From NCBI GenBank assembly GCA_016748015.1, contig JAAOMT010000571.1, positions 366,875 to 430,874 of the forward strand: a stretch of DNA of 64,000 nt, read 5' to 3'. A program made the position numbers and the translations under genes. Every line of letters starts with the position of its first letter. Positions within the stretch are counted from its first letter, which is position 1. The notes under the pieces were generated by a model. That model was not told the DNA's origin. It saw only the letters and a program-made list of their open reading frames with translations, and did not search any database. Shown one piece after another: positions 12,197 to 55,591 of this stretch. The stretch is from Geosiphon pyriformis (Eukaryota > Glomeromycota > Glomeromycetes > Archaeosporales > Geosiphonaceae).

Positions 12197-13599
12197 ATGG
12201 CAAAAATTATCTACCTTTCCTCGGTTACTTGTGCCGCTCTTCTTACATTTGCCTTGGTCAATGCCGGTGATTTCAATGGCAACGCCAACGGAAATGGTAA
12301 CGTTGGTAGCTTAAATGGCAATGATAACGGTAATAACAACAAAGGCAGCTTTAACGGAAATAACAACGGAAACCTCAATTTTGGCTCTGCTAATGGTAAC
12401 GCTAACGGTAACAACAACAAGGGTGACTTTAACGGAAATAGCAACGGAAACTTGAACTGGGGATCATTCAATGGTAATGCTAATGGTAACAACAACAAGG
12501 GATCATATAACGGCAATAATGATGGTAACTGGAACTGGGGTTCATTCAATGGTAACGCCAATGGTAACAAAAATGTAGGATCATACAATGGTAATAATGA
12601 TGGTAACTGGAACTGGGGTTGGTTCAATGGAAACACCAATGGAAACTACAATTTAGGATCAACTAACGGTAACAACGTTGGAAACAAAAATCATNNNNNN
12701 NNNNNNNNNNNNNNNNNNNNNNNNNNNNNNNNNNNNNNNNNNNNNNNNNNNNNNNNNNNNNNNNNNNNNNNNNNNNNNNNNNNNNNNNNNNNNNNNNNNN
12801 NNNNNNNNNNNNNNNNNNNNNNNNNNNNNNNNNNNNNNNNNNNNNNNNNNNNNNNNNNNNNNNNNNNNNNNNNNNNNNNNNNNNNNNNNNNNNNNNNNNN
12901 NNNNNNNNNNNNNNNNNNNNNNNNNNNNNNNNNNNNNNNNNNNNNNNNNNNNNNNNNNNNNNNNNNNNNNNNNNNNNNNNNNNNNNNNNNNNNNNNNNNN
13001 NNNNNNNNNNNNNNNNNNNNNNNNNNNNNNNNNNNNNNNNNNNNNNNNNNNNNNNNNNNNNNNNNGATGGTAACTGGAACTGGGGTTGGTTCAATGGAAA
13101 CACCAATGGAAACTACAATTTAGGATCAACTAACGGTAACAACGTTGGAAACAAAAATCATAAACGAGGTGACTTCAATGGCAACGCCAACGGAAATGGT
13201 AACGTTGGTAGCTTAAATGGCAATGATAACGGTAATAACAACAAAGGGAGCTTTAACGGAAATAACAACGGAAACCTCAATTTTGGCTCTGCTAATGGTA
13301 ACGCTAACGGTAACAACAACAAGGGTGACTTTAACGGAAATAGCAACGGAAACTTAAACTGGGGATCATTCAATGGTAATGCTAATGGTAACAACAACAA
13401 GGGATCATATAACGGCAATAATGATGGTAACTGGAACTGGGGTTCATTCAATGGTAACGCCAATGGTAACAAAAATGTAGGATCATACAATGGTAATAAT
13501 GATGGTAACTGGAACTGGGGTTGGTTCAATGGAAACACCAATGGAAACTACAATTTAGGATCAACTAACGGTAACAACGTTGGAAACAAAAATCATTAA
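12197..13599 (+). CDS. GN-repeat secreted polyprotein A (interrupted by gap)
   Basis: Starts with a 23-residue signal peptide (MAKIIYLSS to ALVNA, V and A at -3/-1). It is followed by a 143-residue block made of eleven 13-residue motifs of the form G-S-x-N-G-N-x-N-G-N-x-N-x, about 41% Asn and 23% Gly. After the gap the end of a block ends NKNH, then Lys-Arg, then a complete second copy of the block, then stop (13597-13599). The first visible and last blocks differ by three synonymous changes that I can find and by no residue. Signal cleavage after VNA and kexin cleavage after KR would both expose GDFNGN, so each product has the same N-terminus. The reading frame cannot be followed through 12695-13065. 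Role unknown: probably a kexin-processed extracellular peptide or structural precursor. Confidence 0.85.
12266..12694 (+). repeat. 429-bp coding repeat unit, copy 1 of gene A
   Basis: Encodes one 143-residue block (eleven 13-residue motifs) from GDFNGN to NKNH directly after the signal peptide. The last copy lies at 13168-13596. Confidence 0.92.
12695..13065. other. assembly gap (371 N) inside gene A
   Basis: An N run. The sequence before it ends exactly at the end of one 143-residue block; the sequence after it resumes at the 96-bp tail of another block. If exactly one extra unit (6-bp KR linker plus 429 bp) spans the join, 339 bp would be missing, close to the 371 drawn. The gap is best explained by a tandem repeat the assembler could not resolve. 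Confidence 0.85.
13168..13596 (+). repeat. 429-bp coding repeat unit, last copy of gene A
   Basis: Preceded by AAACGA (Lys-Arg) at 13162-13167. The translation is identical to the unit at 12266-12694, with a few silent base differences. This points to recent amplification or gene conversion. Confidence 0.92.
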
Positions 13600-15080
13600 G
13601 ATCATTATCAAAGACATTGCAAATGAGGCATTTTCAACACCATCTAATTTAGATAATGTTTACAAGTCCTGTACTTTGCTAGACTTCAAGTAACTTTGTT
13701 GTAGTTTTATTTAGTCATAATGTTAAAATTTTCACGTCTTTCTATGTAATTATAATTTTGGATGTGAATTTAGACCTAATTTTACTGATTATCCACGATC
13801 GAAATACATAACTAGTAAATTTCTTTCAAGAAATAAAATCAAAATTTTAAATACAGTAATTGGTTATGAATTTGTTTAAAGTGACTTAAACAGGTTTCGT
13901 TGGTGAAACTGAAATAAGCAAAAGTATTAAAAAAAGCAAATGATCGAAATTTCTACGCATAAGATCTTTCAACACTCTTAATTCGTCAAAATATTTTGAT
14001 ATTGGCAAAATGGGAAATGATAAACTTGAAAACCTATTTAAGGTTTGGTCACTGCTATGGATACAGAGGTAGCTCAGAGCCAAATTTTATTATGCACACA
14101 TTCGGGCTTGAAAGTAGTCACGAAATATGGGTACACAGTTTCATGAGGTGAAACTTGAATGGTACCACTTCAGATTTCCTATCTTGAACCCACACAAAGG
14201 TAAACTCTAATCGTAATTTTAATATGATGTTTTGTGAAAATCTTTTACTGAAATGCAACAGTGAAATCAAAAAGAGAGATAAACTTAAAACATATCTAGT
14301 TTATTAATCAGTAATCACAAATTTGATATTTATCCATCTCACATACAATCAGCACAATTACCATCTAGTATTAGAAAGGCTTTCGTGTAGCAATTTGGTT
14401 CAATTATAGGACTATCTCAACAGGAAATACAATGGGCGTAAGTATGATAATTTGGTCAAAACTTCTTTCAAGTATTCAGGATGACGCCTTTGCTGAAATA
14501 GAATTTTATAAAGTCTTTTAATTGGAAAATTATTTTAAACCTTTAAAACCAATTTGAGTATCACTCATTTCCAACAATAATTGATAAGAATTTTTTGTTT
14601 TTGACTATTCGATTTTAATAATATTGATTATTTCGAAAAATATTTTTCATCCCATATCGCATTATCACATTTTTATAACTTATAATTATGCTAATGATTT
14701 TAATAAAAATGTACTTTGACTAAAGTTGCCATAATTTTTTCCCTGAGATTCAAACCTATTACATTTACAAACATATGAATAACCAGAGGTGGGAGATTAC
14801 CTCGTTCTTGCTTTAACTGATAATGTAAATTAAATAATGATGATATTTTAATAAAACAAAATAAAGGTTATAAAAAAATTTCTGTTTGAAAGTTTTTTAC
14901 CTTAGAATTTAAATTAAAGATTTTAAATTAATCTAGTCAAAAAGACTTAATATTAAAATATATTTTAAATTGTGTAATATGAAAGCTATATAATAACAAA
15001 GTTATATAGTTTAATATATACAATTTATTAATGTTAATTTTTAACGATAACAATCAATTACAAATCTAATTATAATAATC
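13600..15080. other. intergenic region
   Basis: 3' flank of gene A and following AT-rich DNA. No frame with gene-like composition is supported; the 65-codon minus frame at 13886-14083 has no recognisable feature. Confidence 0.45.
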
Positions 15081-15360
15081 GTTTACAATATGGAATTTTT
15101 AGTAAGACAATAATTCAAAACACATCTTAAAATGATCTCAAAGCCTGTTTTCCAAAAATGCAGTTTTTTTGGACATGATATAGTCTTAATCTTAATCTAA
15201 TTGTAAATATTTTAACCAAAATTACATTAAAAAAATAAGATGACAAAAACAAAGTGTCAAACAAAAGAGTTTTGTTATGTTGTTAAAAAAGAGTGAAAGA
15301 ATCTTTTAAAGAATGAAGTTTTTAACTACATTAATAGTATACAAAATCGTCTTAACTAGA
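15080..15360 (+). pseudogene. Tc1/mariner transposase 3' relic
   Basis: The DNA around 15107 (acaataattcaaaacaca) nearly repeats the transposase segment at 2765. Downstream frames read SLNLNLIVNIL near 15180, in the place of the Tc1 SPDLNPIEN motif, and then VVKKE and NEVFNYINSIQNRL near 15280-15355, which resemble a Tc1 C-terminus. Frameshifts and stops break it, and I find no terminal repeats. Confidence 0.45.
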
Positions 15361-16495
15361 CATATGTTTTTTAACTTAAAAACAATACAAAAAATAATTT
15401 TTATTATTATTATTGTTATTGAATAATTAAATAAATTTGATTATTATTGTTTTACAAAGAAAAAATTAAAATATATATTATAAAAAACAAAATTTTATTG
15501 TTTTATATTCACAAATTGCTTTTTGTTTGTTATTACTTTTTTTTTTTTTTACAAAGATATTACAAAGAAATAAAACAGCTTCAGAAAATATTTAAAAGTA
15601 CAAATGTCATTTTTATGTTTATAACAATCAAGAAACTTAAAATTAAAAATTTTTGAAAATATATCAGTTTTTTTCTAACGGCTTGAGAATTAAAAACTGT
15701 AATAAAATTTATTTAGTAAATTTTATAAAAAACTACCATTTTTAATTAAAACTTTATTATCATTACAAAATAAATGGATTTGAATATTTTCTTAAAATAA
15801 TTTGTTTTATTAATATATATTATTTTTTTATGAATTTTATTTTTCACAATATGTTGTAAATTAAAAAACTATTTTATTAAACATAAAAAAAATAATTTTT
15901 TATTGCATTGTAGACTAAAAATTGTATTTGAATAGTTTGAAATAAATATAATGCTTAATTATTATATAGTGGTAATTTAGAATTATACAAACCCAATTAG
16001 TTACGATTTATGTGATAGTTTATCATATTCACCATTTCATTTTTACTATGCATAAATACTAATAAATTTTACAAATTAAATGTTTATATGATTAAAAAAT
16101 TTGCAAATTTATAATATTTAAAATTTGTCTATAATATATTAAAACAATAAAAAACTTAAATGCTTATATTTTTTAAAAAAATTATTTTGGATTTTAATTG
16201 GCATATTTTTAATAATAATTTAGCTCACAGTATATTATAAAAGATATATTTTAATATTTTGTATTTCAAATACTACAAAAATTCAGACAATATTGAAATA
16301 ATTACATCTTTTAATAAACATTATCAATGTTTTCATCTTGAGAAAAATATTTCTTATTTGTTGGTCTATTTTCAGTTTATTTACATACAAAGCAAAAAGT
16401 AACAAAAGGTTTTAATACAATTAATGTCTTGTTTTGCATGAAAAAATTAAATTCGAAGTAAAATACTGGAAATTAAAATCATTAAATTTTATCTG
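15361..16495. other. AT-rich intergenic stretch
   Basis: Nothing recognisable. The small + strand frame at 15447-15656 is low-complexity and opens from a long T run. Confidence 0.45.
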
Positions 16496-16756
16496 TTATG
16501 AATGGGGTAAATGTTTGAAAATGTTTTTGAGACAAATTATTAGATGGCAAAGGTTATCAAATTTGAGCTTAGTGAATATTTCCTCAGTTGTATTCCGAAG
16601 TGTGTCTTGACAAATTTTCAAATCCTCAAATTTGGAAATAGATTTCCAAAGCAAAAATTCAGTTTCTGTATTTATTGCTCGAGGGAATTTAGGATCAAAT
16701 AAAAGATTGTACATGTCGAAATAATTATAACACTTAAGATCATTGTGATTATACAT
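16496..16756 (-). CDS. 86-residue hypothetical, duplicated
   Basis: An open frame beginning MYNHNDLKCYNYF and ending KHLPHS, 16 bp downstream of GN gene B on the same strand. I do not recognise a domain; it has no signal peptide or membrane segment. A diverged, stop-broken copy of this DNA lies at about 24450-24660, also just beyond a decayed GN-repeat copy in the same orientation, so the two were duplicated together. It may be a real small gene, the 3' end of a longer gene, or simply part of the duplicated block. Confidence 0.3.
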   Translation of the reverse strand: MYNHNDLKCYNYFDMYNLLFDPKFPRAINTETEFLLWKSISKFEDLKICQDTLRNTTEEIFTKLKFDNLCHLIICLKNIFKHLPHS

Positions 16757-16772
16757 ATTGAACTATAAAAAA

Positions 16773-17309
16773 TTAGACATATTTTAATACCGATCCATTA
16801 ACATGAGTTTTTTCTCTCACAGGATAGCGTTTTTTAAGCTCATATCTCTTAGATACATCTCTCTTCAAGTCGTCGTTGCTATTCCTATTACCGTTAGACC
16901 AACCGCTATTGAAGTTACCATTGTTGTTCCCATTCAAGCTACCGTGATTATTGTTGCCATCATTATTTTCATTATTGCTGCCAAATTTATCATTTCCATT
17001 ACCACCTCCGCGTTTGCTGAGCCGAGTTTGCCTCAAAATTGGCTCTCTCTTATATAAGTATCTCTTCCAGTCGTCGTTGCCGTTCCTATTACCGTGAGAC
17101 CAACCGATATTGAAGTTACCATTGTTGTTCCCATTCAAGCTACCGTGATTATTGTTGCCATTATTATTTCCATTATTGATGCCAAGATTATCATTTCCAT
17201 TATTATTTCCATTACTACTTCCGCGTTTTTCATTCGCTGAGACCGTTCCAGTAAAGGTGAGGAGAGCAACATAAAATAAGGCAGATATTACAAAAGTTTT
17301 CTTTGCCAT
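16773..17309 (-). CDS. GN-repeat secreted polyprotein B
   Basis: 178 residues. The signal peptide (MAKKTFVISALF to GTVSA, about 26 residues) is followed by NEKR and a first cargo block of four 13-residue motifs (GSSNGNNNGNDNL and so on) ending DDW-KR. Next come short spacers YLY-KR and EPILRQTRLS-KR, a second diverged block of four motifs starting GGGNGN and ending DDL-KR, then DVS-KR, YELK-KR and a basic tail. The dibasic sites would release two blocks of about 50 residues plus very short peptides. The start is the only ATG before the signal peptide; the TATA box lies about 75 bp upstream. The inverted copy at 21180 shares the first half. Intact frame, so likely functional; role unknown. Confidence 0.82.
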   Translation of the reverse strand: MAKKTFVISALFYVALLTFTGTVSANEKRGSSNGNNNGNDNLGINNGNNNGNNNHGSLNGNNNGNFNIGWSHGNRNGNDDWKRYLYKREPILRQTRLSKRGGGNGNDKFGSNNENNDGNNNHGSLNGNNNGNFNSGWSNGNRNSNDDLKRDVSKRYELKKRYPVREKTHVNGSVLKYV

Positions 17310-18190
17310 TTAAAGTTCTCCTAGGAAGGATCTTTCTTTTGAAATTATTAAGATGAAGTTTTTGTTGAGAAGGCAATGGTTTTTTTATATACCTTTCAAA
17401 TGTTAGGTTACTCTAGAAATTCAATTTTTTCAGGCATAACATTAATGGTTAATTGGAGTATTAACTATTCACCCTCTTTTTAGAGTAGCAAAAATATTTC
17501 TCATATTTACAATTAATTTCACTTGTAACGCATTATCGTTATTTGAAACTTTTTTTAGTATATTCTATATTATTCTGATATAACTAAAAAGATTTCCAGT
17601 CTAGCACATTCTTACGCTAAGGGCTATCATTGAAATTTTAGAACAAAGCCTTTGAGGCTTTAAACCTTAATTTTTCGTAGTAAGAATGAAGCCACTATCT
17701 GTGACTTTGAATCTAGACCATTTTAATTACTCTAGTAAAATAACGTTTGCCAATTTGATTTTTTAAGAGAATAGATTTGATCGGATGACTTCCCAATATC
17801 TTATTAATTTGAAATAGCAAGCAACATATTAAACCAAAGAATGACTTTGATATTTCAGGTTTTGAGGCTAGTGGTAGTGATTTCACGACTTTCTTAATTG
17901 GGGTTTTATTGTTTTGGCTCTTTTGCCTTTTTTGCCTTTTTTTAAGGCGGAATATTTCTTTTCCAGTTGCTTATTCTTCAATAACATTATATGACATGTA
18001 AAAACATCTTAAACTAATAAATAATCAAGGATTACCTAATTTTAGAGGCTGGTGGCAATATATTCTTATTAGGATTTCATTGATTAGCTTTTTTTACCTT
18101 TTAATTCACCTATAAATTTGTGAATTCAAGATGTTTAGATATTTTGCAAAATATTATTTATTATTATTATTATTTTTCAAATTATATTAT
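17010..18190 (-). repeat. left arm of inverted duplication
   Basis: This DNA, from inside gene B through its promoter and about 0.9 kb of upstream sequence, recurs in opposite orientation at 20278-21482 with few differences. The inner end lies in the gcaaaatattatttattattatt tract near 18150-18190. The arms carry the 5' half of gene B, its TATA box and its 5' flank. Confidence 0.88.
17383..17391 (-). promoter_or_regulatory. TATA box of GN gene B
   Basis: TATATAAAA on the minus strand, about 75 bp upstream of the ATG at 17309. The same element is kept in the inverted copy at 21075-21083. Confidence 0.6.
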
Positions 18191-18499
18191 ACGTAAAATC
18201 TATTGTCTTTATCGATTTTAACAAAGCAAACCGTGAATGTTGGTGCTGTGCCGTTTTGTTTAACTGTTAATTGGTTCTCTATCTCCAAGCTTTCTTGCAA
18301 TTAAAACACTCTTTCAATAATAAAATAGGGAGGATATTAGATAAGATTTTAACAAACTTAAAGATAAAGCAAGGAGGCAACAAATCTAGGTGTAAAACTT
18401 ACAAGCTGTTCCTAAAATTAGAGAATCTCGTATTAAATTTTTGTTAAATAGTTCATAATTTCAATTCTCGATTCATAATTTTGCTCAATTATTAACCCT

Positions 18500-19790
18500 T
18501 AAGACATGTAAGTAGTTTTAATCCAAAATCATTATTTCACTTTCCACAACACCTATTTGCTTCTTCGATGTTTGTGACGTCACATTGACGGATATAAAAT
18601 GGATAACAAAAAGATTTATCAGTCTTATGTTTTAACTTTAGGCGGAATTTTAAAACAACGACTGCAAAACTTATACTTTTCAATAATTAAAAGGTTTAAA
18701 GAGAAATTAGGATATTAATTAATAAATGAAAAAATTAATATTTGTAATATTTAATTTTTTTACCTAAAATTTAAAACAATAATTTATTATATAATTTTTG
18801 GTCAATGGATGAGATATTTGTTAGAAGGTTAGATTATATTTTAAATATGAAAAAATAATCCCGTCTCTTCAGAAAATTCAAATTATTTAGCAACAAAAAT
18901 TATGTTTTCAAATTAATTTAATCAGTTCTATCAAGTTTTTTATTATCAATCCCACCTTTATTTCTTTTTTCTCTTCTTAGTTGTTAAAAAAAATCAATAT
19001 ATCAAGTTTTCTTCGTTTTTCACAAATAAACTTGATTTTATAATTCACCAACATTATAACATCTAATTGTACATAGACTTGATCCTGCTTATCAGGAAGA
19101 GAGAACTAGGCTAGAAAATTTGTTAGTTAGGTAGAATCTTAAATGGGGAGGTTAAATTGGGTAATTTATCGAATACAAGATAGTATTTCTTCGGGTTTAT
19201 TGAAAATGGTTTTTGTCAAATTCTTTCAAGAATCAAAAGTAATTATGTTGGGAAATATTTTAATTTTTAAATTCTCGAGATTCTAATTATTTGATTATGT
19301 ATGTGCAGAGTAAAGTTTTATCTCATGGATCCAATTTTTTTCGAGACATATATAAATTAGTTATTTATCTTTCCCTATGATCATAGATTTGGTTTCTAAA
19401 AAATCAACTATTTAGTAAAACTTGTATTTATTAAATTAAAAGTAAATAAAAGGTTTAAATAACAGAAAATCCCAATACTATTTGTTATGCATATAAGTAT
19501 ATTGTTTCTAAAAATATATAACTTTTCATTTTAACATAATGGTGTATTGCATCGATTGGTGCAATCCCAATATCCCATTGTGATCGTCATTCTTCACCAT
19601 TTTTTTATAATATAAAATAGATTTTAGTTCCACAAAAAAAATGAACCTCAAAAGATCCCCAAAAATACTAATATCAATAAAAATTTTTCCTTGTGAGATG
19701 TTAATATAGCAAAGTGAATATTGAATCCGCTGTAGAAACCCTTGTAAGTTCAAAGAGAATGATATAAATACGCCCACCAATGGTAAAAGA
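18500..19790 (+). repeat. dispersed repeat, copy 1 (palindrome spacer)
   Basis: Diverged but collinear with about 41340-42640 in the same orientation. Shared landmarks include a tatcaggaagagaga stretch (19089 and 42070), a region around atttcttcgggt / atttcttgaga, and gattggtgcaatcc (19555 and 42598). It fills the spacer between the two inverted arms. No intact frame; identity unknown. Confidence 0.5.
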
Positions 19791-20277
19791 CAGGATTTAA
19801 CTTTCGTAAATCCTTAATACCAGTTATTGCTGACCTTTATTGCTTTCTGTACCTACATCTAGTCCTGAGTTTCAGGACATGACAACTATGTCAGCCGGAA
19901 TAAAATTCTAGTTCGTAAGATATGGATTTAAACCTCGGACTGAAAAGTTTTTTATCTCCTACAAAAAGTTCTTAAATTTGTACAAACAAAAACTAAATAA
20001 CTATTGTAGAAAAGACTTTTTCAAAACAATTGAAATCAAAAAATATAAGTTTAAAGATGAATGGAAATCATGAAGTTTTGCAATTTAAACCTATCTTATA
20101 TCATTATGTAGAAGATTAAATTAATCGCAAGCTCTTATTGTCATCATATTAGGCTGTTATTTAAATATAGATAATGGAAAATAAATTAATACTCCCAATA
20201 AAAATACTAAATAAGCAATACAGCACCAACATATTACCTGCAGAAGCCTATATATTAGAAATTGGGATTCTTGCCTT

Positions 20278-21482
20278 AATATAATTTGAAAAATAATAAT
20301 AATAATAAATAATATTTTGCAAAATATCTAAACATCTTGAATTCACAAATTTATAGGTGAATTAAAAAGGTAAAAAAAGCTAATCAATAAAATCCTAATA
20401 AGAATATATTGCCACCAGCCTCTAAAATTAGGTAATCCTTGATTATTTATTAGTTTAATATGTTTTTACATGTCATATAATGTTATTGAAGAATAAGCAA
20501 CTGGAAAAGAAATATTCCGCCTTAAAAAAAGACAAAAAAGGCAAAAGAGCCAAAACAATAAAACCCCAATTAAGAAAGTCGTGAAATCACTACCACTAGC
20601 CTCAAAACCTGAAATATCAAAGTCATTCTTTGGTTTAATATGTTGCTTGCTATTTCAAATTAATAAGATATTGGAAAGTCATCCGATCAAATCTATTCTC
20701 TTAAAAAATCAAATTGGCAAACGTTATTTTACTAGAGTAATTAAAATGGTCTAGATTCAAAGTCACAGATAGTGGCTTCATTCTTACTACGAAAAATTAA
20801 GGTTTAAAGCCTCAAAGGCTTTGTTCTAAAATTTCAATGATAGCCCTTAGCGTAAGAATGTGCTAGACTGGAAATCTTTTTAGTTATATCAGAATAATAT
20901 AGAATATACTAAAAAAGTTTCAAATAACGATAATGCGTTACGAGTGAAATTAATTGTAAATATGAGAAATATTTTTGCTACTCTAAAAAGAGGGTGAATA
21001 GTTAATACTCCAATTAAACATTAGTGTTATGCCTTAAAAAATTGAATTTCTAGAGTAACCTAACATTTGAAAGGTATATAAAAAAAACCATTGCCTTCTC
21101 ATAAAAAACTTTTTCTTAATAATTTCAAAAGAAAGATCCTTCCTGGGAACTAAATATAAAATTCTAAAGAGTACTTTAAGTGGCAAAGAAAACTTTTGTA
21201 ATATCTGCCTTATTTTATGTTGCTCTCCTCACCTTTACTGGAACGGTCTCAGCGAATGAAAAACGCGGAAGTAGTAATGGAAATAATAATGGAAATGATA
21301 ATCTTGGCAGCAATAATGGAAATAATAACGGCAACAATAATCACGGTAGCTTGAATGGAAACAACAATGGCAACTTCAATATCGGTTGGTCTCACGGTAA
21401 TAGGAACGGCAACGACGACTGGAAGAGAGACTTATATAAGAGAGAGCCAGTTATTAAGTGAATTGGGCTCAACAAACGCGGA
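20278..21482 (+). repeat. right arm of inverted duplication
   Basis: Reverse complement of 17010-18190 with scattered substitutions. It includes the copied upstream region, the TATA box (21075-21083) and the signal-peptide half of GN copy C. The spacer between the arms is about 2.1 kb. Confidence 0.88.
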
Positions 21483-21545
21483 AGTGGTAACTTGAAGAGA
21501 GATCCTATGTTCATTTTACCCGATATCCCAATTGATATGTCTTAA
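21180..21545 (+). pseudogene. GN-repeat copy C, inverted and broken
   Basis: Encodes almost the same signal peptide and first four 13-residue motifs as gene B (one N-to-I type change in the motif block). The initiator ATG is GTG here (TTAAGTGGCAAAG against TTAAATGGCAAAG), and extra bases sit in the 5' leader with no replacement ATG in view. After YKREP an in-frame TGA (21459-21461) replaces the CAA codon of gene B. The frame then continues NKRGSGNLKRDPMF to a TAA at 21543-21545. Relative to gene B, the second GN block is deleted between GGTAA and CTTGAAGAGAGAT. Start loss plus a premature stop make this a pseudogene, although a GTG or other non-AUG start cannot be fully excluded. Confidence 0.8.
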
Positions 21546-24450: not shown

Positions 24451-24660
24451 CATATGCTAAAAATTATCATATTTGAGTTTCATTAATATTTTTTCAACTG
24501 TATTCTGAAGTGGATTTTATTAATAACTATTTGAGTTCTCGACTTTGGATTTTCGAAGCAAGAGACTCCGTTTCTGTGTTTACTAGCTTTATCTATTTAA
24601 GAAGATTAAATTCCGGCTTATATATCGAATCACTATTATAAATGAAATCATTTAATTATG
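24450..24660 (-). pseudogene. decayed copy of the 86-residue hypothetical
   Basis: Diverged duplicate of 16560-16756: matching stretches include the ttcaactgtattctgaagtg region near 24494 and the caagagactccgtttctgtgtttac region near 24560. Stops and indels break the frame. It lies in the same position relative to the GN relic at 24785 as the intact frame does to gene B. Confidence 0.5.
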
Positions 24661-24784
24661 CAAATTAAACTAAGTTATTAAATCTGTCGCTTCTTCGAAT
24701 TTACTAAAAAGATTTATATTTTTTTATTGAGATTTAAGTAAAATAAATTTCTTAATAAAAATTAATATAAGTTAATTATATGAT

Positions 24785-25080
24785 AAGGGAGTATGTACAG
24801 CTAAGAGAATTTAAAAACTTGATTTAAAATAAATTTTTTAAGACCTATCAAATCGGGATAGGTTTATAGGGTGATTATTCCCTAAATAAAATAAAAACTA
24901 CCGTTATAATTTCCATTGTTGCTTCCAAGATTACCATTTCCATTATTATTTACATTTTAAATGTTAGGTTACCCTAGAAATTCAATTTTTTTCAGGCATA
25001 ACACTAATATTTAAATGAAGTATTAACTATTCATCTTCTTTTTAGAGTAGCAAAGAAATTTCTCATATTTTTAGAGAAAA
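24785..25080 (-). pseudogene. decayed third GN-repeat copy
   Basis: Reading the minus strand, a short piece of GN repeat (NNNGNGNLGSNNGNYNG near 24960-24900) lies directly against promoter DNA matching the flank of gene B (aaatgttaggttaccctagaaattcaa at 24959). The signal-peptide part is missing. Its downstream side (24785-24840) matches the 3' flank of copy C at 21541-21610 (ttctcttagctgtacatactccctt in reverse complement). So this is a duplicate in which the middle was deleted. Confidence 0.7.
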
Positions 25081-43287: not shown

Positions 43288-43842
43288 ATGTCATCAAAAG
43301 AACTCTTGAAAAACAACATTTTTTCCATTGATGATGATGATGATGATGATGAGTTAAAAGTTTTTGAATTTGCTCAATCAATGATACAACCAACATCACC
43401 CGAGTCTGATATTCAAGTTACCGTCGATATAACCACAAAAAGACCTAACTTCAACCACTTAGAAAATGATGCTAATACAGATGAAAATTTTTTCAATTCC
43501 CATCAAGAAGTTTACTTTCATTTTAGCACTATTGTTGTTGAAAAGAATCAAAATCAATCTAAACCACAAGTAAGACAAACAACTTCAGTCAAACCTTTAG
43601 CTAACAGCAGCAGTGAATCAATCAGAAAATACTTACAACCGAATACAGAGCGACGAAGAAAACTTGTAAGCCCATTCATCCTTTATAGTAAACTTAAAAG
43701 TCCAGAGATTGAGGCTTTACATCCTGATAAAAGTAAAGCAGTAATTGCAAAGATTATTTATAAATTGTGGTGGGAATTAGCCGTTGATGAACGTGAATAT
43801 TGGGAAAGCGTTTCTGATGGGTTAAGGAACAAAACTTCATGA
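43288..43842 (+). CDS. HMG-box protein, MATA-HMG-like
   Basis: 184 residues, no intron. The N-terminal part is acidic and low-complexity with eight consecutive Asp encoded by a GAT repeat (about residues 16-23), followed by a Ser/Thr/Asn-rich linker. The C-terminal part, about residues 124-178, matches the HMG-box of the MATA class: SPFILYSKLKSPEIEAL, then SKAVIAKIIYKLWW and DEREYWESVSD, with the expected aromatic and Trp positions. It ends right after the box. Such proteins are strongly multiplied in arbuscular mycorrhizal fungi; in other fungi they bind DNA and control mating or development. Its target and role are not shown here. The ATG follows a TATAAATA-like stretch very closely, so an upstream promoter is not resolved. 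Confidence 0.83.
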   Translation: MSSKELLKNNIFSIDDDDDDDELKVFEFAQSMIQPTSPESDIQVTVDITTKRPNFNHLENDANTDENFFNSHQEVYFHFSTIVVEKNQNQSKPQVRQTTSVKPLANSSSESIRKYLQPNTERRRKLVSPFILYSKLKSPEIEALHPDKSKAVIAKIIYKLWWELAVDEREYWESVSDGLRNKTS

Positions 43843-44020
43843 AGGAGATCATGAAGAGCAATATTATTCTTTTAATAAATAGTAGAAAGCGCTTTCAATT
43901 ACTTTTAACAGAAACCGAGATTTTTATTAATGACCTATAATTAGTGTATATCTTTTCAAATTTATCTAATAACCTTTATCATACTTCTGAACTTTAGTGA
44001 GAGTTTGAAGAAATGAGCTA

Positions 44021-44055
<35 letters not shown>

Positions 44056-45730: not shown

Positions 45731-45764
<34 letters not shown>

Positions 45765-46098: not shown

Positions 46099-46131
<33 letters not shown>

Positions 46132-49100
46132 ATAAATTTTTTATATTATATTTTATCTTAAGATTAATAATTTTTTACTTTAATTCTTTTAAAAATATTA
46201 ATATTCTTTTTTATCTTAGCATTCACAAAAAAATATTTACTAATCTCATAATTAAAGTAACTAAAAAACTAATAAATTTAACAATAAATTTAATTAACAA
46301 ATTTTAATTTAGCCAATTCGAATTCCAAAAAATAAACTTAGAATTAATCATAAAATTCACAATAGTAATAGAAAAAAAAACCAAAATATAACTGTTTTTG
46401 TATAATACTTTATATTAGTAAAATAATTTGTAAAATTTTTAAAGTCAACCACAAATTTTAATAAAGCTTAAAAAAAAAAACAGAAATATCTTATAATTTG
46501 TAACCAATTAATTTACACTTTAATATTTGAAACATTATTAATAATTAAAGATTTTTTATCAAATATAATTTTTTTTAAAATATATAATTTAGCTTAAAAA
46601 TTAAAAATAATAACAATATATCTCAACTATTATGTAAAATTAAAAGACAAAAAAAAGAAACAAATGTAATTATATACTTAAAAAACTAAATTGTTAATTT
46701 TAAAAACAGTACAACCAAATAAAAAATCCACTAATTTGGCTTTAAATACATTTTTTAAAATAATTATTTCTCTTTGATTTAAAACAAAAAAGATTTTAAC
46801 ACTATTTTTTTAACAAAAACTGACTAGCAAATTAAAGCTATATTTAAAAACTTATGCAATTTAAAATAGACAATATTATATTATTATTGTTCGATAGGTT
46901 TTATCTTATTATTAAAAATTTATTAAAAGTATTCATACCATTTTTAACTTATTTATAGTGGCTTTTAAAAAAATATTACAAAAAGCAAACAGCAACAAAA
47001 ATAGAATTAGAATCAAGTATAATTATAAAAATAAAAATAATTATTAATTAATTGAATAAAAAAACTTAATTAAGTTTTAATATATTAAATAATAATAAGT
47101 TTATTAAATATATTAATATTAATATTTGTTTAATTTTGTTGGCTATTTAAATATTATAATTTAGATTTTAATAAACATATTAAATTTTGGTTTAAGTAAA
47201 AAGTATTTTCTGTAATAAAAAATGCATAATTCGTATTTTTAATAAAATATTTATATATTGTAAATAAGTAAATAGTAATTGAATTATATTCAATAAAATA
47301 GTTAATTTTTTTCAAAAATTTTCAATTAAATTTAATTTTAAATATATTTTAACCAGTTTAATAAATCTTTTCTCAAGACAATTTGTGTATTAAAATTGTT
47401 ATTTTGTTTGAACTGTTAATATTTTTTTATAAATATATTTTTTGTCTAAAATTTTTAGGTATTTTTTAATTAATTTTTTTATATTCTGTTTTTTTATTAA
47501 TGACAAAACATTGTTATAAATTTTTTCTCAATTTAATTACAATTATTTATTAACATTAAAAATAGTTTTTGGTTGTTTTTGGTTATTTTTAATTCCCGAA
47601 TGTATAAAATTGCCAAGTAAAAAATCAATATATATAATTTTTTTGATTGTGTTGTTAAAACATGAAAAAAAAACAGTTTTATTTTGTTATATTTATTGTG
47701 CAATTGATTGAACATATTAAAAAAAAAACTTTTTTGGTCAATTAAAATTTTTTTTTTGATTTAAAAAGTATTTATTTCAGTTTTGCAAGACTGTTATAGA
47801 TTTTAAATATTAAATTTTTGTTCTATCATAAATTTTTTTTTTAAACACATTTTTATATTTTCAGAGATTTAAAAATTTTTACATTATAGCTCCAAATGTG
47901 ATTTTGTTATTTTCATGAGTTTTAACCAAAAAAAGATCAAAAATATCACAAAAAAGTGTAAATATAATGTTATCATTTAAACCAAAAAATTAACTTTAAT
48001 AATTTCTAAAAACTTTATATTAAAATAAAAAGAAATTTCCTTTTGACCAATTTTTCGTGGGAGTTGAGAATAATTGGATTGGAACTTCTTTTTGAGTAAA
48101 ATTCATATAATTTTTTTTTTTTGAAAAATGTAGACTTTTGTAAAAATAGCGTTAAAACCTAAAAGTTTTTTTTGAAAATTTGCAACTGCCGAGAACTGTT
48201 AAAATTGGTGAATTCAAATGGTGAATAAACATTAAAAGTAAATAATTGCAAGCATAAAATATGATTTGACAGTAGAATGGTAAATAACAATCAAAACCTT
48301 ATTGAAAAAATGATGTTTTTTATATAAAATTAAACAAGGTTTATTTTTAATTTGGACAAAAACATAGTCTTACTAAAACTTGAATTTTAAAAAATTTCAA
48401 GAAAGTAAATTTCTTGGATTAAATAATATGCAATGGGCTGAAACAAAAAGTGTACAAAATTCAATTAAGATACGCATTATTTTTTGAAAATTTGTTATTC
48501 TTGTTTATCAAAAAAAGCTTAAAAATTTATATAAAATAATTAATCGAATGTAATGTCAGTTTCAAGAATTAAATAATTGTATAACCCATTAAAAAATGAA
48601 AAATTAATTTCTTAAAGTTACAAGATTATCCCGCGGGAAATTGGATGAATACATTCAAGGGTTAAGCGTAAGATGTGGTAAATAAAATAAATTCTAACAC
48701 ATATTTGACTCTTTGCACAACAAATGTGATTAAGAATGATGAGAAATTCAAAAAATTGATATATATAGTGCTGGCAAGATTTTTAAATCATATCACCTAA
48801 AAATATGTATAATCAAAATAATTTACAAAATCTGTTTTTTTTTTAAATCCGACCCTCAATAATTTACATACCCCAAGATGAAACGGAAATTTAAAAAAAA
48901 AAAGAAAGTTATTTGCGCAACAATTGTTTCGAATCTGTTAGTTACATTTCCAAATCAACAAAACTCCTTTTTTGTTTTTGCGAAACACAAAAGATATCTA
49001 TATTATATCCAAAAGCTTCGCATATTCATGAGCTTATTAGAAGACTTCATTCACAACAAACTGGTTAACAGAATCTTTTGTTAAAATATCTTAAAAAGGA

Positions 49101-49423
49101 AAAAATTGGTTATATTCACAAATCATAGATTTTCAAAAAAATATTCCAACAAGCTCTTAAAAATTAAATATGAATTTTATTGAGAATAATAATGAAATTG
49201 ATATTCACATGATCTAGAATGCTGATTTAATTACATGAATCTGAATGTGTACACCAGTGAAAATGCAAGAATTTATATAAAAATGATTCTGTGGAAGAAT
49301 GTAACAATTCGAACGGTTCTTTCCAGGGTAATTTTTGAAGTATGGTATATACATTTTGGATTAGTAACTAGCTTAATCAATTCTGGGTTCCCTATTTAGT
49401 TGTCGTTGTCATTGAACTAATCT
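43843..49423. other. 5.6-kb AT-rich intergenic region
   Basis: Contains (ATTG)n at 44021-44055, (AAT)n at 45731-45763 and (ATT)n at 46099-46130. Open frames such as 45228-45479 and 46086-46307 are I/L/N/K-rich products of AT sequence. From about 48600 composition rises modestly; the 68-codon frame at 48878-49084 is not recognised. Confidence 0.5.
44021..44055. repeat. (ATTG)n microsatellite
   Basis: Nearly nine uninterrupted ATTG units. Confidence 0.95.
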
Positions 49424-50896
49424 TTAGTAAAGAGCTCGTTTTTCCTCCTGTCTCTTCCCGTTGCCGCGTTTCCATCCCCTGTTGTTGTTGCCATTGCTGT
49501 TGCCATTAAAGCTACCCCAATTAGCGTTACCATTTTTGTTACCATTCGCGCTACCGAGATTATTGTTGCCATTGTTATTTCCGTTGAAGTTGCCAAGGTT
49601 ACCATTTCCATTATTGTTTCCATTACCGCCGCGTTTCCACCACCAGCCGTCCCTATTATTGTTGCCATTGCTATTTCCGTTGAAGTTGCCAATGTTACCA
49701 TTTCCATTATTGTTTCCATTACCACCGCGTTGCCACCACCAGCCGTCCCTATTATTGTTGCCATTGTTATTTCCGTTGAAGTTGCCAAGGTTACCATTTC
49801 CATTATTGTTTCCATTACCGCCGCGTTTCCACCACCAGCCGTCCCTATTATTGTTGCCATTGTTATTTCCGTTGAAGTTGCCAAGGTTACCATTTCCATT
49901 ATTGTTTCCATTACCGCCGCGTTTCCACCACCAGCCGTCCCTATTATTGTTGCCATTGTTATTTCCGTTGAAGTTGCCAAGGTTACCATTTCCATTATTG
50001 TTTCCATTACCGCCGCGTTTCCACCACCAGCCGTCCCTATTATTGTTGCCATTGCTATTTCCGTTGAAGTTGCCAAGGTTACCATTTCCATTATTGTTTC
50101 CATTACCACCGCGTTCTTCTATTCTCTTATATAAGAGAGGATCTCTCTTATATACTAGAGGATCTCTCTTATATTCTTGAGGATCTCTCTTATATTCTTG
50201 AGGATCTCTCTTCCACCACCAGCCGTCCCTATTATTGTTGCCATTGTTATTTCCGTTGAAGTTGCCAAGGTTACCATTTCCATTATTGTTTCCATTACCG
50301 CCGCGTTTCCACCACCAGCCGTCCCTATTATTGTTGCCATTGTTATTTCCGTTGAAGTTGCCAAGGTTACCATTTCCATTATTGTTTCCATTACCGCCGC
50401 GTTTCCACCACCAGCCGTCCCTATTATTGTTGCCATTGTTATTTCCGTTGAAGTTGCCAAGGTTACCATTTCCATTATTGTTTCCATTACCGCCGCGTTT
50501 CCACCACCAGCCGTCCCTATTATTGTTGCCATTGCTATTTCCGTTGAAGTTGCCAATGTTACCATTTCCATTATTGTTTCCATTACCACCGCGTTCTTCT
50601 ATTCTCTTATATAAGAGAGGATCTCTCTTATATTCTTGAGGATCTCTCTTCCACCACCAGCCTCCCTTGTTGTTGTTGCCATTGCTGTTGCCATTAAAGC
50701 TACCCAAATTAGCGTTACCGTTGTTGTTCCCATTCGCGCTACCCCAATTATTGTTGCCGTTGTTATTTCCGTTGAAGTCGCCAATGTTACCATTTCCATT
50801 ATTGTTCCCGTTACCACCACGTTTTTCATTGGCAGAGACGGCCACAGCATAAGCGAGAAGTGACAAGGTAGATAAAGTTATAATTTTAGGTGCCAT
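49424..50896 (-). CDS. GN-repeat secreted polyprotein D with WWW-tipped peptides
   Basis: 490 residues. Signal peptide (MAPKIITLSTL to AVSA, about 22 residues), then NEKR. The first cargo is four GN motifs ending KGGWWW-KR. Then come heptapeptides of the DPxxY-KR type (DPQEYKR, DPLLYKR, DPLVYKR) in two groups. Nine repeats of a 32-residue peptide follow in two arrays (4 and 5), each with two GN motifs and a tail RDGWWW then KR; one has QR instead (Lys lost). Both arrays open with IEER. The last, longer block ends RGW-KR, followed by GNG-KR, QEE-KR and ALY. Kexin cutting would free about 11 GN peptides, most ending in three Trp, and six heptapeptides ending in Tyr once Lys-Arg is trimmed. The resemblance is to fungal kexin-processed precursors; activity unknown. 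No intron is seen. Confidence 0.9.
   Translation of the reverse strand: MAPKIITLSTLSLLAYAVAVSANEKRGGNGNNNGNGNIGDFNGNNNGNNNWGSANGNNNGNANLGSFNGNSNGNNNKGGWWWKRDPQEYKRDPLLYKRIEERGGNGNNNGNGNIGNFNGNSNGNNNRDGWWWKRGGNGNNNGNGNLGNFNGNNNGNNNRDGWWWKRGGNGNNNGNGNLGNFNGNNNGNNNRDGWWWKRGGNGNNNGNGNLGNFNGNNNGNNNRDGWWWKRDPQEYKRDPQEYKRDPLVYKRDPLLYKRIEERGGNGNNNGNGNLGNFNGNSNGNNNRDGWWWKRGGNGNNNGNGNLGNFNGNNNGNNNRDGWWWKRGGNGNNNGNGNLGNFNGNNNGNNNRDGWWWKRGGNGNNNGNGNLGNFNGNNNGNNNRDGWWWQRGGNGNNNGNGNIGNFNGNSNGNNNRDGWWWKRGGNGNNNGNGNLGNFNGNNNGNNNLGSANGNKNGNANWGSFNGNSNGNNNRGWKRGNGKRQEEKRALY
49640..50660 (-). repeat. 96-bp tandem coding repeats
   Basis: Two arrays of near-identical 96-bp units encoding the 32-residue peptides, separated by the heptapeptide block at about 50115-50210 (in-frame GATCCTCAAGAATAT-type units of 21 bp). 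Base-level identity between units is very high, indicating recent expansion or homogenisation. Confidence 0.93.
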
Positions 50897-50968
50897 TTAG
50901 AATCTCCTTTTCTTGTGAAGTGGTTTAGAGATATAGGAATGAAATTATTGTGAAGAAGGGAACGGTTC

Positions 50969-50976
50969 TTTTTATA
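50969..50976 (-). promoter_or_regulatory. TATA box of GN gene D
   Basis: TATAAAAA on the minus strand, about 75 bp upstream of the ATG at 50896, the same spacing as in gene B. About 51.1-51.3 kb also shares similarity with the upstream flank of gene B (gaagcc..ct..ctgtg.ctttga pattern). Confidence 0.58.
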
Positions 50977-50999
50977 CTTTTGAATACTCCTTAGCTGAT

Positions 51000-52020
51000 T
51001 TATAGAATTTAGAATTTAGAATTTTCATTTGTGATTGATTAGGGATTACACCATAAAAAAATCGAAAAAGTAATCGTTCTCCAAGCAATTTTAGATGACT
51101 ATAAGGCTTAAATTTCTGGTTTCCATATGAGAACAATCATTAATAAGCCTCAAATGCTTTGAAATTCGGATACAGAAAAAGCCAAATTTAAGAATCTTTG
51201 GCATTGAAAATTTATCATATTGAAGCCTCTTTCTGTGGCTTTGAGTTTTAATTTTCAACCTAGATTGGTGGCAATAAAATTCTAAATCGTTGTTTGATCA
51301 ACTTTCTTTTCCAGGCAAGATTTTATTGGCTAGCTTTTTTAACCGCTAATCTTCTTCAGCTATTAATTTATGGCAAATATAGCGTCATGTCAATATTCAG
51401 ACCACGATTGAAGCAAGATTCTTGTTTTCTAACGTTAAGCCCATTCTTGGCAAGACAAGTTTCTATTATTTATAAAACAATTAAGGCTCATTAACTTCTA
51501 ACGCTTGGGGCAATCATTCTAAGGTTTTCCTTCTTAAGATTTTATTGGTTTGCTTTCTTGCCTTTTCAGGGCTTATATCCTTTCTTGGAACTATTAATTC
51601 AGGGTAAATTTGCGAAGTAAAGCTGGCGAGATATTTAGTTAAATAGTGTTGTACTATTATCCATATTATATTCGAGGCATTCTTGGGAAAAAATTCTTAG
51701 TTTATCGACAACAAGTTCGATGTAATAATAAAGCAAAGCCATGAAGTAGGATACGATGATTAGCCTAAATTTGGGCTCTTTTTTCAAGCTTTTTTACCAG
51801 TTAAACTATGTTTCAACAATAAAATTGACGATCATAAAATAGGGGAGAATTTTGGAAGAAATAGTTCGTATTTGATTCATTAGAGTAGTGTGCTTTTTTA
51901 CACTTATAATAATAATACACTCTCGTAAATTTTTAAAATAACTTGACACAAAGCAAGAGTATTTTTTGTAAATTGACACCGAATTTTTAATTTTCCTCAA
52001 TAATTTCGTTTTTCCATGAT
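51000..52020. other. intergenic region upstream of gene D
   Basis: Promoter flank of D and the 3' flank of the hotdog gene. The small frame at 51294-51494 has no supporting feature. Confidence 0.45.
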
Positions 52021-52831
52021 TCAAGATTTTAGCGCCTCCAATTTCTCTACACTCAAAAATAAGGCATTTGCATCGAGAATAAGTAGCTCCTTATCAAAAA
52101 TCATCATTTTACCTTCAACAAAACCTTTTCTTCCTTCGAGTTTCGTAACCTTGCATTGGCATTTTACAATTTGGTTGGTAGCACAAGGAGTTCTAAAGTT
52201 CACATGAAGATAAGCTGTTGCTCCATTTTCGTGAGGAAAGTATGGATTTACCTTTAGTAGACAAAGTTGTTAGGGAAAAGTTTCTTACTAGATATTTTTT
52301 TATTTCTAAATATTAACTTACAGTCCTAGCAAACATTTCATCCATAATAGTTGACAACAACCCACCATGCACAATCCCATCATGTCCACATAAATCCCTA
52401 CCAAGATGCAAAAAAGCTAACAATTCCATCTTTTCCTTTGAAAAAAATACAACAGGGGGCACTGATAACCGTCCTTTTCCTAATAATGTGCCGGCTGTTA
52501 AATTATATTTTCTGGTTTCTTCTCGTAACCATGGATATACTCTATTTTCCTCATAGCCTTTATCATTACGTAGCTGTTGAACGAGTGGATGGGAAGATAT
52601 TTGTTCATTGATTTCTCTAGCAAAAGCTAAATTTTCATCTTGCGAAATTGAAGTAATTCTGGGGGGGCGAGTTATAAAGACAGTGTAACGCCTCAAACCA
52701 CCGGTTACCAGAAGAAGCGAGATCCCTATTGCTGTCAAGCCGATTACTACTGTGGTAGTAGTTTTTGAATTAGTGAAAAGATTTGATCCCAAAGATTTAA
52801 ATGCTGTTCCATAACCTGAGTTTGACCCCAT
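52021..52831 (-). CDS. membrane-anchored hotdog thioesterase-like protein
   Basis: Two exons on the minus strand, 52831-52322 and 52251-52021, join in frame (GT-AG, 70-nt intron) to 246 residues. A single hydrophobic segment lies at about residues 26-45 (VVIGLTAIGISLLL), so the N-terminus is an anchor or mitochondrial/ER-type signal. The hotdog fold follows, with the hallmark GIVHGGLLSTIMDE near 153-166, where the 4HBT family carries its substrate loop and acidic residue. The strand YLHVNFRTPC comes just after the splice site, as in many thioesterase-superfamily proteins. These hydrolyse acyl-CoA thioesters; the substrate is not shown. The start is the first ATG of the frame. Neighbours on both sides are GN-repeat genes, with no evident functional link. 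Confidence 0.87.
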
Positions 52832-54690
52832 TTGAAACTTTAAAAAAATTTTCTGTTTGTCTTTAAAATCTTATGATGGGACAAAAAATTTAAAAAATCT
52901 TTTTTAAAAATGTACAAAGTTGGCTAGGGGAAAATAATTTGGTATGGATATAAAAACTCCGAAATTTGCCTTAATATTATATAATTCAAAAAGTGATGCG
53001 CCAAACACCAAATAGATTTTATGATTGGTTAAGGATCTACTCAGGTCTTTAAGCAATAAGGAATAAACTGAATATTTTAATAAATAAAGCAAATGTTCAA
53101 AAAAAAAAAAATTTTATGAATATATTATTAAAATTCTATACACAAAAATAAGCCCTCAAGTTAAAACTTATATTCTGTTTGCTTAAAATTAAAATTGTGT
53201 TTTCAAAAAGAATTGAGAAATAAATAACTGAAAATCTCACTTTTTTCTTTTAATTATTATAACTTTTGTATTTGAAAAATTTGACTATATGATGAAATAT
53301 AATCCATTACAAAGCTTGATTCTTTTGAATATTATTCCACAAAAAATTAATTTCTATAAAGTAATAATAAAACTATATAATTTATTATTATTTGAAAAAT
53401 TTAAAAATTAAATTTATTAATTGATTAATTTTTTAATTAATTAAAAATTTGCCAATTATTTGAATTAGAAAAATATTTATTATTAAAATAAAACTTAAAA
53501 ATTTAAATATAAATATTTGAGAATGAAAAATTTAAAAAACAATATTTTTTTTAATTAAATTACATTTTAAAAATTAATAAAAACAAAATTATTTATAATT
53601 GGGTTAAATATTTACCAATTTTTATAAAATGTATTTGTTTTAAGATTCGAAAAAATATTTTCAAAAACAAAAACTTTACAGAAAATTATTTAATTTTATA
53701 ATTTGAATTTAAATTTGAATTATATTAGTAAAAGATTTTATAATTAAGAGTAAAAACATTAATAATAATTAATATTTTACTTGATTATTTATTTAATTTA
53801 ACTAAAGTTTCAAAATTAATCTTAAATTTTAGGTCAAAACTTAAATTAGAGTGTTATTTTTAATTTAAAACTATACAAATTAACAAATTCAAATTCAAAA
53901 AATAAATAAATGACAAAATTAAAATATATTTACAAAATTCAGACATAAGAGATAAATTTTGAAGAACAACAATAAGCTAGCCAATAATTTCATAATTCAA
54001 TATTAAAAGTACTTCAAAAAAAACTTTTTCATAATATTTGGCGAACTTTGTAAATAAAACAATTGAGCAAATGTATTAAAAACTTAAAAGGATGCTTATG
54101 TTCCATAGTCAATTTAATTAGAATTTTAGAAAAGATATTCTAGTTTTTCTCAAAGCTATACAATCACAATAGGAATAAGCCAGCTGTTTTTATATCTGCT
54201 GTTTTCCATCTAATCAGCATAGTTATTTCGATCATTCAACAAAAAATTTACTTGCCAATTTATGAAAAAGAACTTTGGGTCACCGTTCGGCAATTATCAC
54301 ATAAAATATGTTATTCACAAATTTTTTTATTAAGAAGAGTCGCAAAATAAGCTTTCATCTTGGGATCATGGAACCTGTATGAGGCCAAAAGGTTAAAATT
54401 TTTGATAATGGTAAATTCCTAAATGCATTGTGGCTACAAAGTTAGCTCTTCAATTGCGACAATATGAAAACCTTTTTTTGAATTTTGATAGTTAAGGAAC
54501 TTCAAGATTTAAATAGCTATTGATAAAATAAATATTGTTAATAATTTCAAGATTTTCTATATCTAAATTAAATTGATATTTTTGTCTCAAGATTTTAATT
54601 AAGTACAAGGAACATGAAAAAAATGCAAATAATTATTGTCATGATTGTCCTATATATTTCTATGTTACCAAAATGTTTCTTTTGAATCCA
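52832..54690. other. AT-rich intergenic stretch
   Basis: No gene supported. Around 54260-54470 composition is less AT-rich, with broken frames that I cannot identify. Confidence 0.45.
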
Positions 54691-54691
54691 A

Positions 54692-55492
54692 TTAGTGGTT
54701 GAAATTTCCATTGTAATTTCCGTTAAACCAACCTACATTGTCGTTTCCATTACCGTTACCATTGAATGAACCATCATTGTAATTTCCGTTGGAATTTCCA
54801 TTTAACGATCCTTGGTTGTTGTTTCCATTACCGTTGCCATTGAATGAACCATTGTTTCCGTTGCCATTATTGTTACCATTCCCACTACCACGTTTATGGT
54901 TGAGATTTCCATTGTAATTTCCGTTAAACCAACCTACATTGTCGTTTCCATTACCGTTACCATTGAATGAACCATCATTGTAATTTCCGTTGGAATTTCC
55001 ATTTAACGATCCTTGGTTGTTGTTTCCATTACCGTTGCCATTGAATGAACCATTGTTTCCGTTGCCATTATTGTTACCATTCCCACTACCACGTTTATGG
55101 TTGAAATTTCCATTGTAATTTCCGTTAAACCAACCTACATTGTCGTTTCCATTACCGTTACCATTGAATGAACCATCATTGTAATTTCCGTTGGAATTTC
55201 CATTTAACGATCCTTGGTTGTTGTTTCCATTACCGTTGCCATTGAATGAACCATTGTTTCCGTTGCCATTATTGTTACCATTTCCACTACCACGTTTATG
55301 GTTGAAATTTCCATTGTAATTTCCGTTAAACCAACCTACATTGTCGTTTCCATTACCGTTACCATTGAATGAACCATCATTGTAATTTCCGTTGGAATTT
55401 CCATTTAACGATCCTTGGTTGTTGTTTCCATTACCGTTGCCATTGAATGAACCATTGTTTCCGTTGCCATTATTATTACCATTTCCACTACC
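54692..55492 (-). repeat. four 201-bp tandem coding units
   Basis: Each 201-bp unit encodes 65 residues plus Lys-Arg. Units differ by only a few bases, mostly silent. Confidence 0.94.
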
Positions 55493-55591
55493 ACGTTTAT
55501 CGTTGACATTTGTATCAGCATTGGCAGAAAGAACAAAAGAAATAAGAGCGGCATATGCCAAAGCAGATAAAGCGATGAATTTTGGTGCCAT
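54692..55591 (-). CDS. GN-repeat secreted polyprotein E
   Basis: 299 residues. A signal peptide (MAPKFIALSAL to VLSANA, about 24-26 residues) and a short propeptide ending NDKR are followed by four copies of a 65-residue block. Copies are joined by Lys-Arg, and the last has no KR and ends the protein. Each block is exactly five 13-residue motifs, the first starting GSGNGNNNGN and the last reading GWFNGNYNGNFNH (one copy has L for F). 33 + 4x67 - 2 = 299 accounts for every residue. Kexin would free four essentially identical 65-residue peptides. The architecture and the NH-KR junction are closest to gene A. The ATG is the first in the frame and is followed at once by the signal peptide. Role unknown. 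Confidence 0.9.
   Translation of the reverse strand: MAPKFIALSALAYAALISFVLSANADTNVNDKRGSGNGNNNGNGNNGSFNGNGNGNNNQGSLNGNSNGNYNDGSFNGNGNGNDNVGWFNGNYNGNFNHKRGSGNGNNNGNGNNGSFNGNGNGNNNQGSLNGNSNGNYNDGSFNGNGNGNDNVGWFNGNYNGNFNHKRGSGNGNNNGNGNNGSFNGNGNGNNNQGSLNGNSNGNYNDGSFNGNGNGNDNVGWFNGNYNGNLNHKRGSGNGNNNGNGNNGSFNGNGNGNNNQGSLNGNSNGNYNDGSFNGNGNGNDNVGWFNGNYNGNFNH

Follow-up and report, generated by a model that had tools for sequence, protein, structure and literature searches.

A genome-wide family of predicted secreted Asn/Gly-repeat proteins with kexin-type punctuation in Geosiphon pyriformis

Four genes (A, B, D and E) in a 64,000-nucleotide stretch of Geosiphon pyriformis DNA (C389:366875-430874; hereafter the window) encode proteins built from a 13-residue Asn/Gly repeat unit, which we term the tile. 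Searches of the 124.7 Mb genome establish that these genes belong to a family that is real, larger than an earlier, sequence-only reading of the window had claimed, and partly known. Protein searches identified 54 loci on 33 contigs, rising to 66 on 40 when the listed matches to a DNA pattern are added, with decayed copies included in both counts; the 43 kb to which the family had been confined was therefore too narrow. We propose, with a probability of roughly 0.55, that kexin frees capped Asn/Gly beta-solenoid rods, which assemble into a matrix or coat, either on the outside of the hyphae or where fungus and cyanobacterium meet. As far as we found, the size of the family, the tile as a solenoid coil, the capping of blocks and a rhizobial counterpart are new.

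We defined the tile using 37 gene models containing 514 tiles. These models were taken from fetched loci, leaving out those that were gapped, partial, frame-broken or start-less, and dibasic sites were not a selection criterion. The consensus is N1 G2 N3 x4 N5 G6 N7 x8 N9 x10 G11 x12 x13, in which positions 1, 2, 6, 9 and 11 were fixed by the search term and the remaining positions were free. Among the free positions, Asn occurs at position 5 in 96%, at position 7 in 94% and at position 3 in 69% of tiles, and positions 4, 8, 10 and 13 are widely variable. A DNA pattern for one tile gave 428 matches in the genome compared with 3 for the same pattern read backwards, indicating that the matches are not due to chance. 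By hydropathy only (no SignalP), all 37 models have a hydrophobic N terminus, a figure that is partly the result of selection as loci without a clear start were dropped.

The four window genes share these features. Each open frame (A, forward strand, starting at 12197; B, D and E, reverse strand, starting at 17309, 50896 and 55591) encodes an N-terminal hydrophobic stretch, dibasic sites and NGNxNGNxNxG repeats, which confirms the signal, Lys-Arg (KR) sites and 13-residue motif previously attributed to all four. Gene E (54692..55591, reverse; 299 residues) has a signal/pro region at residues 1-33 followed by four KR-divided blocks of 65 residues with five 13-residue tiles each, exactly as had been read. 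Gene D (49424..50896, reverse; 490 residues) consists of NG blocks, mostly with a GWWW-KR end, and DPxxYKR spacers; seven are two-tile blocks (five of 30 residues and two of 34) and the larger blocks have 56, 62 and 53 residues. Gene B (16773..17309, reverse; 178 residues) comprises a signal, an EKR site, a 52-residue block, spacers and a second block; of the two blocks of about 52 residues expected here the first was found as described, whereas the second is degraded and has 48 residues. The 5' part of gene A (12197..12694, forward) holds the signal region in codons 1-23 and the first 143-residue block of 11 tiles, and the 3' part (13066..13599, forward) holds a block end, a KR site at 13162-13167, the last 143-residue block and the stop. 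The 429 nt of this last block are 99.3% identical to the first. Gene A thus has a KR between blocks and none ahead of its first tile. The two parts are separated by an assembly gap of 371 N (12695..13065), and because the halves are out of frame across it the stated gap length is doubtful; the two visible blocks (11 x 13) are a minimum number, and the three or more previously counted reduce to two that are certain. Assembly gaps also fall within another repeat gene of the family (L021).

The placement of dibasic sites in the family is far from random. A [KR]R site lies at residues 22-47, ahead of the repeat, in 26/37 models (mean of 1.28 and maximum of 6 in 2000 shuffles), and the 37 models contain 105 such sites in total (shuffle mean 14.3, maximum 26). 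None lies inside a tile core, and of 187 Arg residues 3 are located within tile cores. Between tiles there are 52 sites, distributed over 13/37 models. The residue preceding the dibasic pair is Tyr, Trp or His in 59 of the 105, and short DPxxYKR spacer peptides are found in D (6) and C271 (1). The multi-block polyprotein layout proposed from the window therefore applies to these 13 models, but the commoner plan is one cut ahead of a single repeat domain.

Blocks also begin in a distinctive way. The first tile of a block usually carries Gly at position 8 (61/74 block-first tiles against 74/464 other tiles), and we refer to this form as the cap tile. It is present in 34/37 internal blocks, although these come from 13 genes and many are copies of one another within a gene; counted by gene, 27/37 follow the trend and 4 go against it. 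The genome further contains one P_proprotein domain, whose surrounding exons, read by eye, resemble kexin, with subtilase motifs, a P domain, a hydrophobic stretch and an acidic tail. Given the dibasic placement, the restarts with a cap tile and the genomic kexin gene, the blocks look like separate units destined for release by a putative cleavage at these sites.

We compared these features with those of prokaryotic tile proteins. A two-tile pattern searched over 84,980 prokaryote species returned 96 stretches (L059-L154). By title, about 82 of these belong to genera that we take to be Hyphomicrobiales, with several from one genome (e.g. Mesorhizobium soli). Five carry titles from outside Alphaproteobacteria (Cohnella, Paenibacillus, Rathayibacter, a Myxococcales metagenome-assembled genome (MAG) and a Methanosarcina MAG), and two more are titled Proteobacteria only. 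At least two tile frames are present in 35/96. For the contrast we used the 141 frames with at least three tiles; 66 prokaryotic frames passed the filter, 56 were non-redundant and 15 entered A4. A hydrophobic N terminus is present in 130/141 frames, yet dibasic sites are found ahead of the first tile in 0/141 and between tiles in 0/141. Composition alone lowers the prokaryotic chance of a dibasic site, since shuffled frames would give 1.36 at residues 22-47, but the Geosiphon count is still far above that of its own shuffles. Prokaryotic first tiles lean to Gly at position 8 less sharply (86/141 compared with 304/659). In L071 and L072 tile genes lie beside MacAB/HlyD-type exporters, and tblastn over the 96 stretches, counted per stretch and not by adjacency, gave MacB permease in 8, HlyD-like in 15, kinase-like in 36 and regulator-like sequences in 33. 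We also observed two neighbouring genes, one of pure tiles and one with GNVGAFNG-type repeats, in L060, L062, L066, L070, L071 and L072. In sequence of such simplicity, the shared tile may reflect either homology or convergence. Together, the prokaryotic contrast, the capped blocks and the genomic kexin gene strengthen the earlier claim that Glomeromycotina have secreted repeat proteins with kexin punctuation, which is supported here; the sequence-only interpretation as a whole is partly supported.

Structure prediction suggests that each tile is one coil of a beta-solenoid. AlphaFold modelled the 143-residue block of gene A as an 11-coil beta-solenoid with one tile per coil, with a best predicted local distance difference test score (pLDDT) of 77.4. 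For gene E it placed strands every 13 residues (pLDDT 60.9), with low confidence over approximately residues 26-108. This low stretch in our first model, together with a disorder-like composition and the classing of relatives as disordered in PMC8786786, would fit low-complexity surface proteins that are disordered, elastic or prone to amyloid formation and whose 13-residue period reflects DNA repeat expansion. We regard this explanation as unlikely: the tile is conserved both in bacteria and among paralogues whose variable positions have diverged, the first tile of a block is unlike the inner ones, AlphaFold predicts a regular solenoid, and the Asn and Gly codons are mixed and do not form a single repeated DNA word.

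Somewhat less probable again is that the genes encode signalling or effector peptides, similar to the KEX2-processed repeat proteins (KEPs) discussed below, acting on the cyanobacterium, a host or other hyphae, with repeats serving dosage. The KEP layout, the near-identical blocks in E and D and the short spacer peptides described above would all be expected in this case. A material nevertheless fits better than a ligand, given that mature units are mostly 50-140 or more residues long, that one tile is used across all 37 models, that the uncut mature part of C367 reaches 902 residues and that prokaryotes have the same tile without cut sites. For the short spacers of gene D a signalling role could still hold. 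Ice-binding or drought-protective solenoids are a much poorer candidate; structure comparison matched the gene E model to 3p4g, and this chain was absent among the best 50 of 217 chains aligned to the gene A model, so that ice binding may still hold, with low probability.

Several observations indicate that the family consists of real genes. The element TATAWAW is present at -250 to -40 in 27/29 family upstream regions, compared with 43% of random 217-nt window stretches and 32% of GC-matched ones, although these are not 29 independent cases because paralogues share upstream DNA. Gene A has one such element at 12047..12053 (forward, -150) and a second at 12114. Gene E is 94% alike to a copy on C387 (L009) over 1925 bp, and the two match further in the 5' flank; E is also related to C95. 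Family copies arise by whole-locus duplication. Between E and the C387 copy, 37 codon differences are synonymous and 5 non-synonymous, a ratio of non-synonymous to synonymous rates (dN/dS) of 0.03 at face value. We did not use this value as stated and scaled the claim to block level, because the 42 nucleotide differences are all transitions, many are at CpG (22/41 classified) and the blocks are homogenised. At block level there are 7 synonymous changes to 1 non-synonymous, with P of 0.003 when all transitions are treated as equal. Transversions look purged within gene E, since there are 17 among 40 changes in the upstream kilobase and 0/42 in the gene. dN is also below dS in the pairs B/C271 and E/C95.

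Two decayed copies in the window have been confirmed. The first (21180..21461, forward; 93 codons) is an inverted copy of gene B in which GTG replaces the ATG, and sits in a duplication with the B region that is 95.6% alike over 1216 bp. The second, previously placed at 24785, is the remnant of a third B-like copy (24593..25070, reverse); it retains flanks (24593-24860 and 24943-25070) and, at approximately 24885-24950, a fragment of tile. Such decayed copies, here and elsewhere in the genome, might suggest non-functional minisatellite expansions in decaying duplicates, but the long intact frames with signals, the TATA elements, the dibasic placement and the excess of synonymous change make this the least credible alternative of all. 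Among other open reading frames of the window, that at 3412-3801 (forward) matches dUTPase (PF00692, 31 bits, above cut-off) and that at 43288-43842 (forward) has an HMG-box match just below cut-off (PF00505, 25.0 bits against 25.4).

The architectures of the family extend from a single domain of approximately 100 residues to that of C277a, which has 1067 residues and Ser/Thr linkers. Pfam gave no family at cut-off for D, E and five relatives, NCBIfam gave none for D, E and one relative, and sequence searches with gene E and the family profile found no PDB sequence. Gene B is identical to the public protein P0001, whereas D and E were not returned by their own sequences in public protein searches, and public annotation seems to hold few family members. 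One public model, P0028 (G9A89_006378), fuses an unrelated N-terminal stretch to the C242 repeat protein and is probably a mis-prediction. C354b (L012 2310-3377) carries repeated FQ/FEKW-type motifs C-terminal to its tiles, with no Pfam match, and in C286 and C241 (L049, L056) tiles flank a Thr/Val-rich stretch on either side, a layout unlike the kexin type.

These data allow us to propose a mechanism by which the rods are made. Geosiphon would secrete a large family of proteins whose signal peptides are predicted and whose mature part is predicted to be a beta-solenoid with one 13-residue tile per coil. Golgi kexin would then cut at the KR ahead of the repeat in most members, and also between blocks in multi-block members, releasing self-contained rods of approximately 2 to 11 coils, most of which have a cap tile first. 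A scaffold of conserved Asn and Gly would stay constant and be decorated at the variable positions 4, 8, 10, 12 and 13, which may face outwards. Finally, the rods may come together as a matrix or coat on the outside of the hyphae or between fungus and cyanobacterium. We favour a structural role on four grounds: the scaffold stays constant as other positions change, uncut mature parts can be hundreds of residues long, the bacterial tile occurs without processing, and the nearest fungal precedent, the kexin-released Rep1 peptides of Ustilago, acts at the wall.

A number of observations weigh against this proposal. No dibasic site is present at residues 22-47 in 11/37 models, including gene A. 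Block length is divisible by 13 only in E and its copy on C387, in A, in C95, in B and in single pieces of C378a and C277b; the lengths in D (30, 34), C354d (66) and C242b (57) do not fit this period. AlphaFold confidence is moderate, with only the best of the five A-block models being good and the others at pLDDT 47-59, and Foldseek with the gene E model gave no significant PDB match. Some of the 29 upstream regions are recent copies of each other. The block-level P for E and C387 becomes 0.02 under a CpG-only null, the evidence for selection comprises approximately 8 independent events as blocks homogenise each other, and in the C232/C112 pair, with 2 synonymous to 6 non-synonymous changes, dN below dS is not clear. 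Finally, the window genes are known here from sequence alone, and it is from this that we infer their function.

More tentatively, the tile solenoid could be a shared extracellular unit of microbes associated with plants and algae. We find named relatives in Ambispora leptoticha (P0002), Mesorhizobium, Bradyrhizobium, Rhodopila, Coccomyxa, Microdochium, Rhodotorula and plant PF06830 proteins. The Ambispora protein has KR directly ahead of its repeat, as in Geosiphon members. At their N-terminal end, Root_cap proteins of Salvia and Humulus (PF06830; P0017, P0026) carry a similar Asn/Gly repeat in runs. No Rhizophagus or Gigaspora protein appears by name among the matches listed (approximately 8000 candidates scored per search; one list gives the best 120 of 135), and we do not claim absence. 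Under this wider hypothesis, which we consider possible but doubtful, the unit would be common to rhizobia and their relatives, early-branching Glomeromycotina, Coccomyxa and some plant root-cap-domain proteins, and Geosiphon, which houses Nostoc cyanobacteria, would have turned it into a set of dozens of self-capped rods, exchangeable for one another and processed by kexin, that coat the hyphae or the Nostoc interface.

To our knowledge, little is known of the surface components of Glomeromycotina. Once a coil unit and its cut sites are defined, 'GN-rich disordered proteins' become a structural family open to testing, and the cut sites give exact peptides to seek by mass spectrometry. A further question is why one tile should serve both rhizobia and a fungus that hosts cyanobacteria. 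The family is also well suited to asking how a repeat domain acquires kexin punctuation, and what keeps the blocks of one gene similar as its copies drift apart.

The sequence-only reading recognised no characterised family and suggested an undescribed system, which does not stand given that several related proteins are in print. Closest are GpRIC1-3, Geosiphon cDNAs whose GN-rich, secreted products have KR noted as possible Kex2 sites (PMC8786786), and the GN-rich proteins of Ambispora and Paraglomus described alongside them and classed as disordered (Schultz et al. 2022, PMC8786786). GpRIC1-3 come from the same fungus and are likewise GN-rich and secreted with KR sites, and by their description they (MH580277-MH580279) probably belong to the tile family; no match named GpRIC was among the public protein matches listed (one search giving the best 120 of 135). 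They differ in that they are three proteins treated as disordered, compared with at least 54 loci here, and excerpts from PMC8786786 do not mention a 13-residue coil, a cap tile or a bacterial counterpart for them.

KEPs are likewise a named class (Le Marquer 2019, PMC6339444; Umemura 2020, PMC7329392; also PMC9769878, in which Coprinopsis KEPs were expressed in Pichia), and SP7 and KEX2 sites have been treated in Rhizophagus (PMC5293756). The KEP layout of a signal, repeated units and dibasic sites between units fits D and E. With respect to the features of this class, a signal peptide is predicted in A, B, D and E (hydropathy only). Three or more repeats split by KEX2 sites are found in D and E, whereas B has two, one of them degraded, and A spans a gap; repeats make up at least 15% of the protein, with 4 x 65 of 299 residues in E and seven blocks of 30-34 residues among the 490 of D. 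In contrast to KEPs, tile units are multi-coil domains, and in most members one cut is followed by just one unit. Dikaritin-type cyclic peptides such as ustiloxin were considered because of the YKR spacers in D, whose peptides have only 5 residues; a genome search for UstYa oxidases (PF11807) came back empty, as did the control set.

Class II hydrophobins of Trichoderma and Claviceps are secreted surface proteins with Gly/Asn repeats (PMC2253510), and share this segment with the tile family but carry an eight-Cys domain. We rejected a class II hydrophobin with a GN extension, as A (5' part), B, D and E lack Cys beyond residue 22; of the 37 models, 29 likewise lack it and none exceeds 4. A PG/A-rich, GPI-anchored AGL protein was also rejected, with at least 15% Pro in 0/37 models and a hydrophobic C terminus in 0/37 (hydropathy only; two models end at a gap). 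Figures for the Geosiphon assembly are given in PMC9453076.

The self-associating autotransporters TibA and Ag43 are among the closest known systems, as are the tile proteins of Hyphomicrobiales (Mesorhizobium, Methylobacterium, Labrys), which share the 13-residue tile and hydrophobic N terminus with Geosiphon but have no dibasic sites ahead of or between tiles. Rep1 of Ustilago maydis yields 37-residue, kexin-released repeated peptides that act at the hyphal wall (PMC6339444, PMC5293756). By description rather than by sequence, the tile family resembles Rep1 in its predicted kexin-released repeats, and the rod coat that we propose would be comparable in logic to these peptides.

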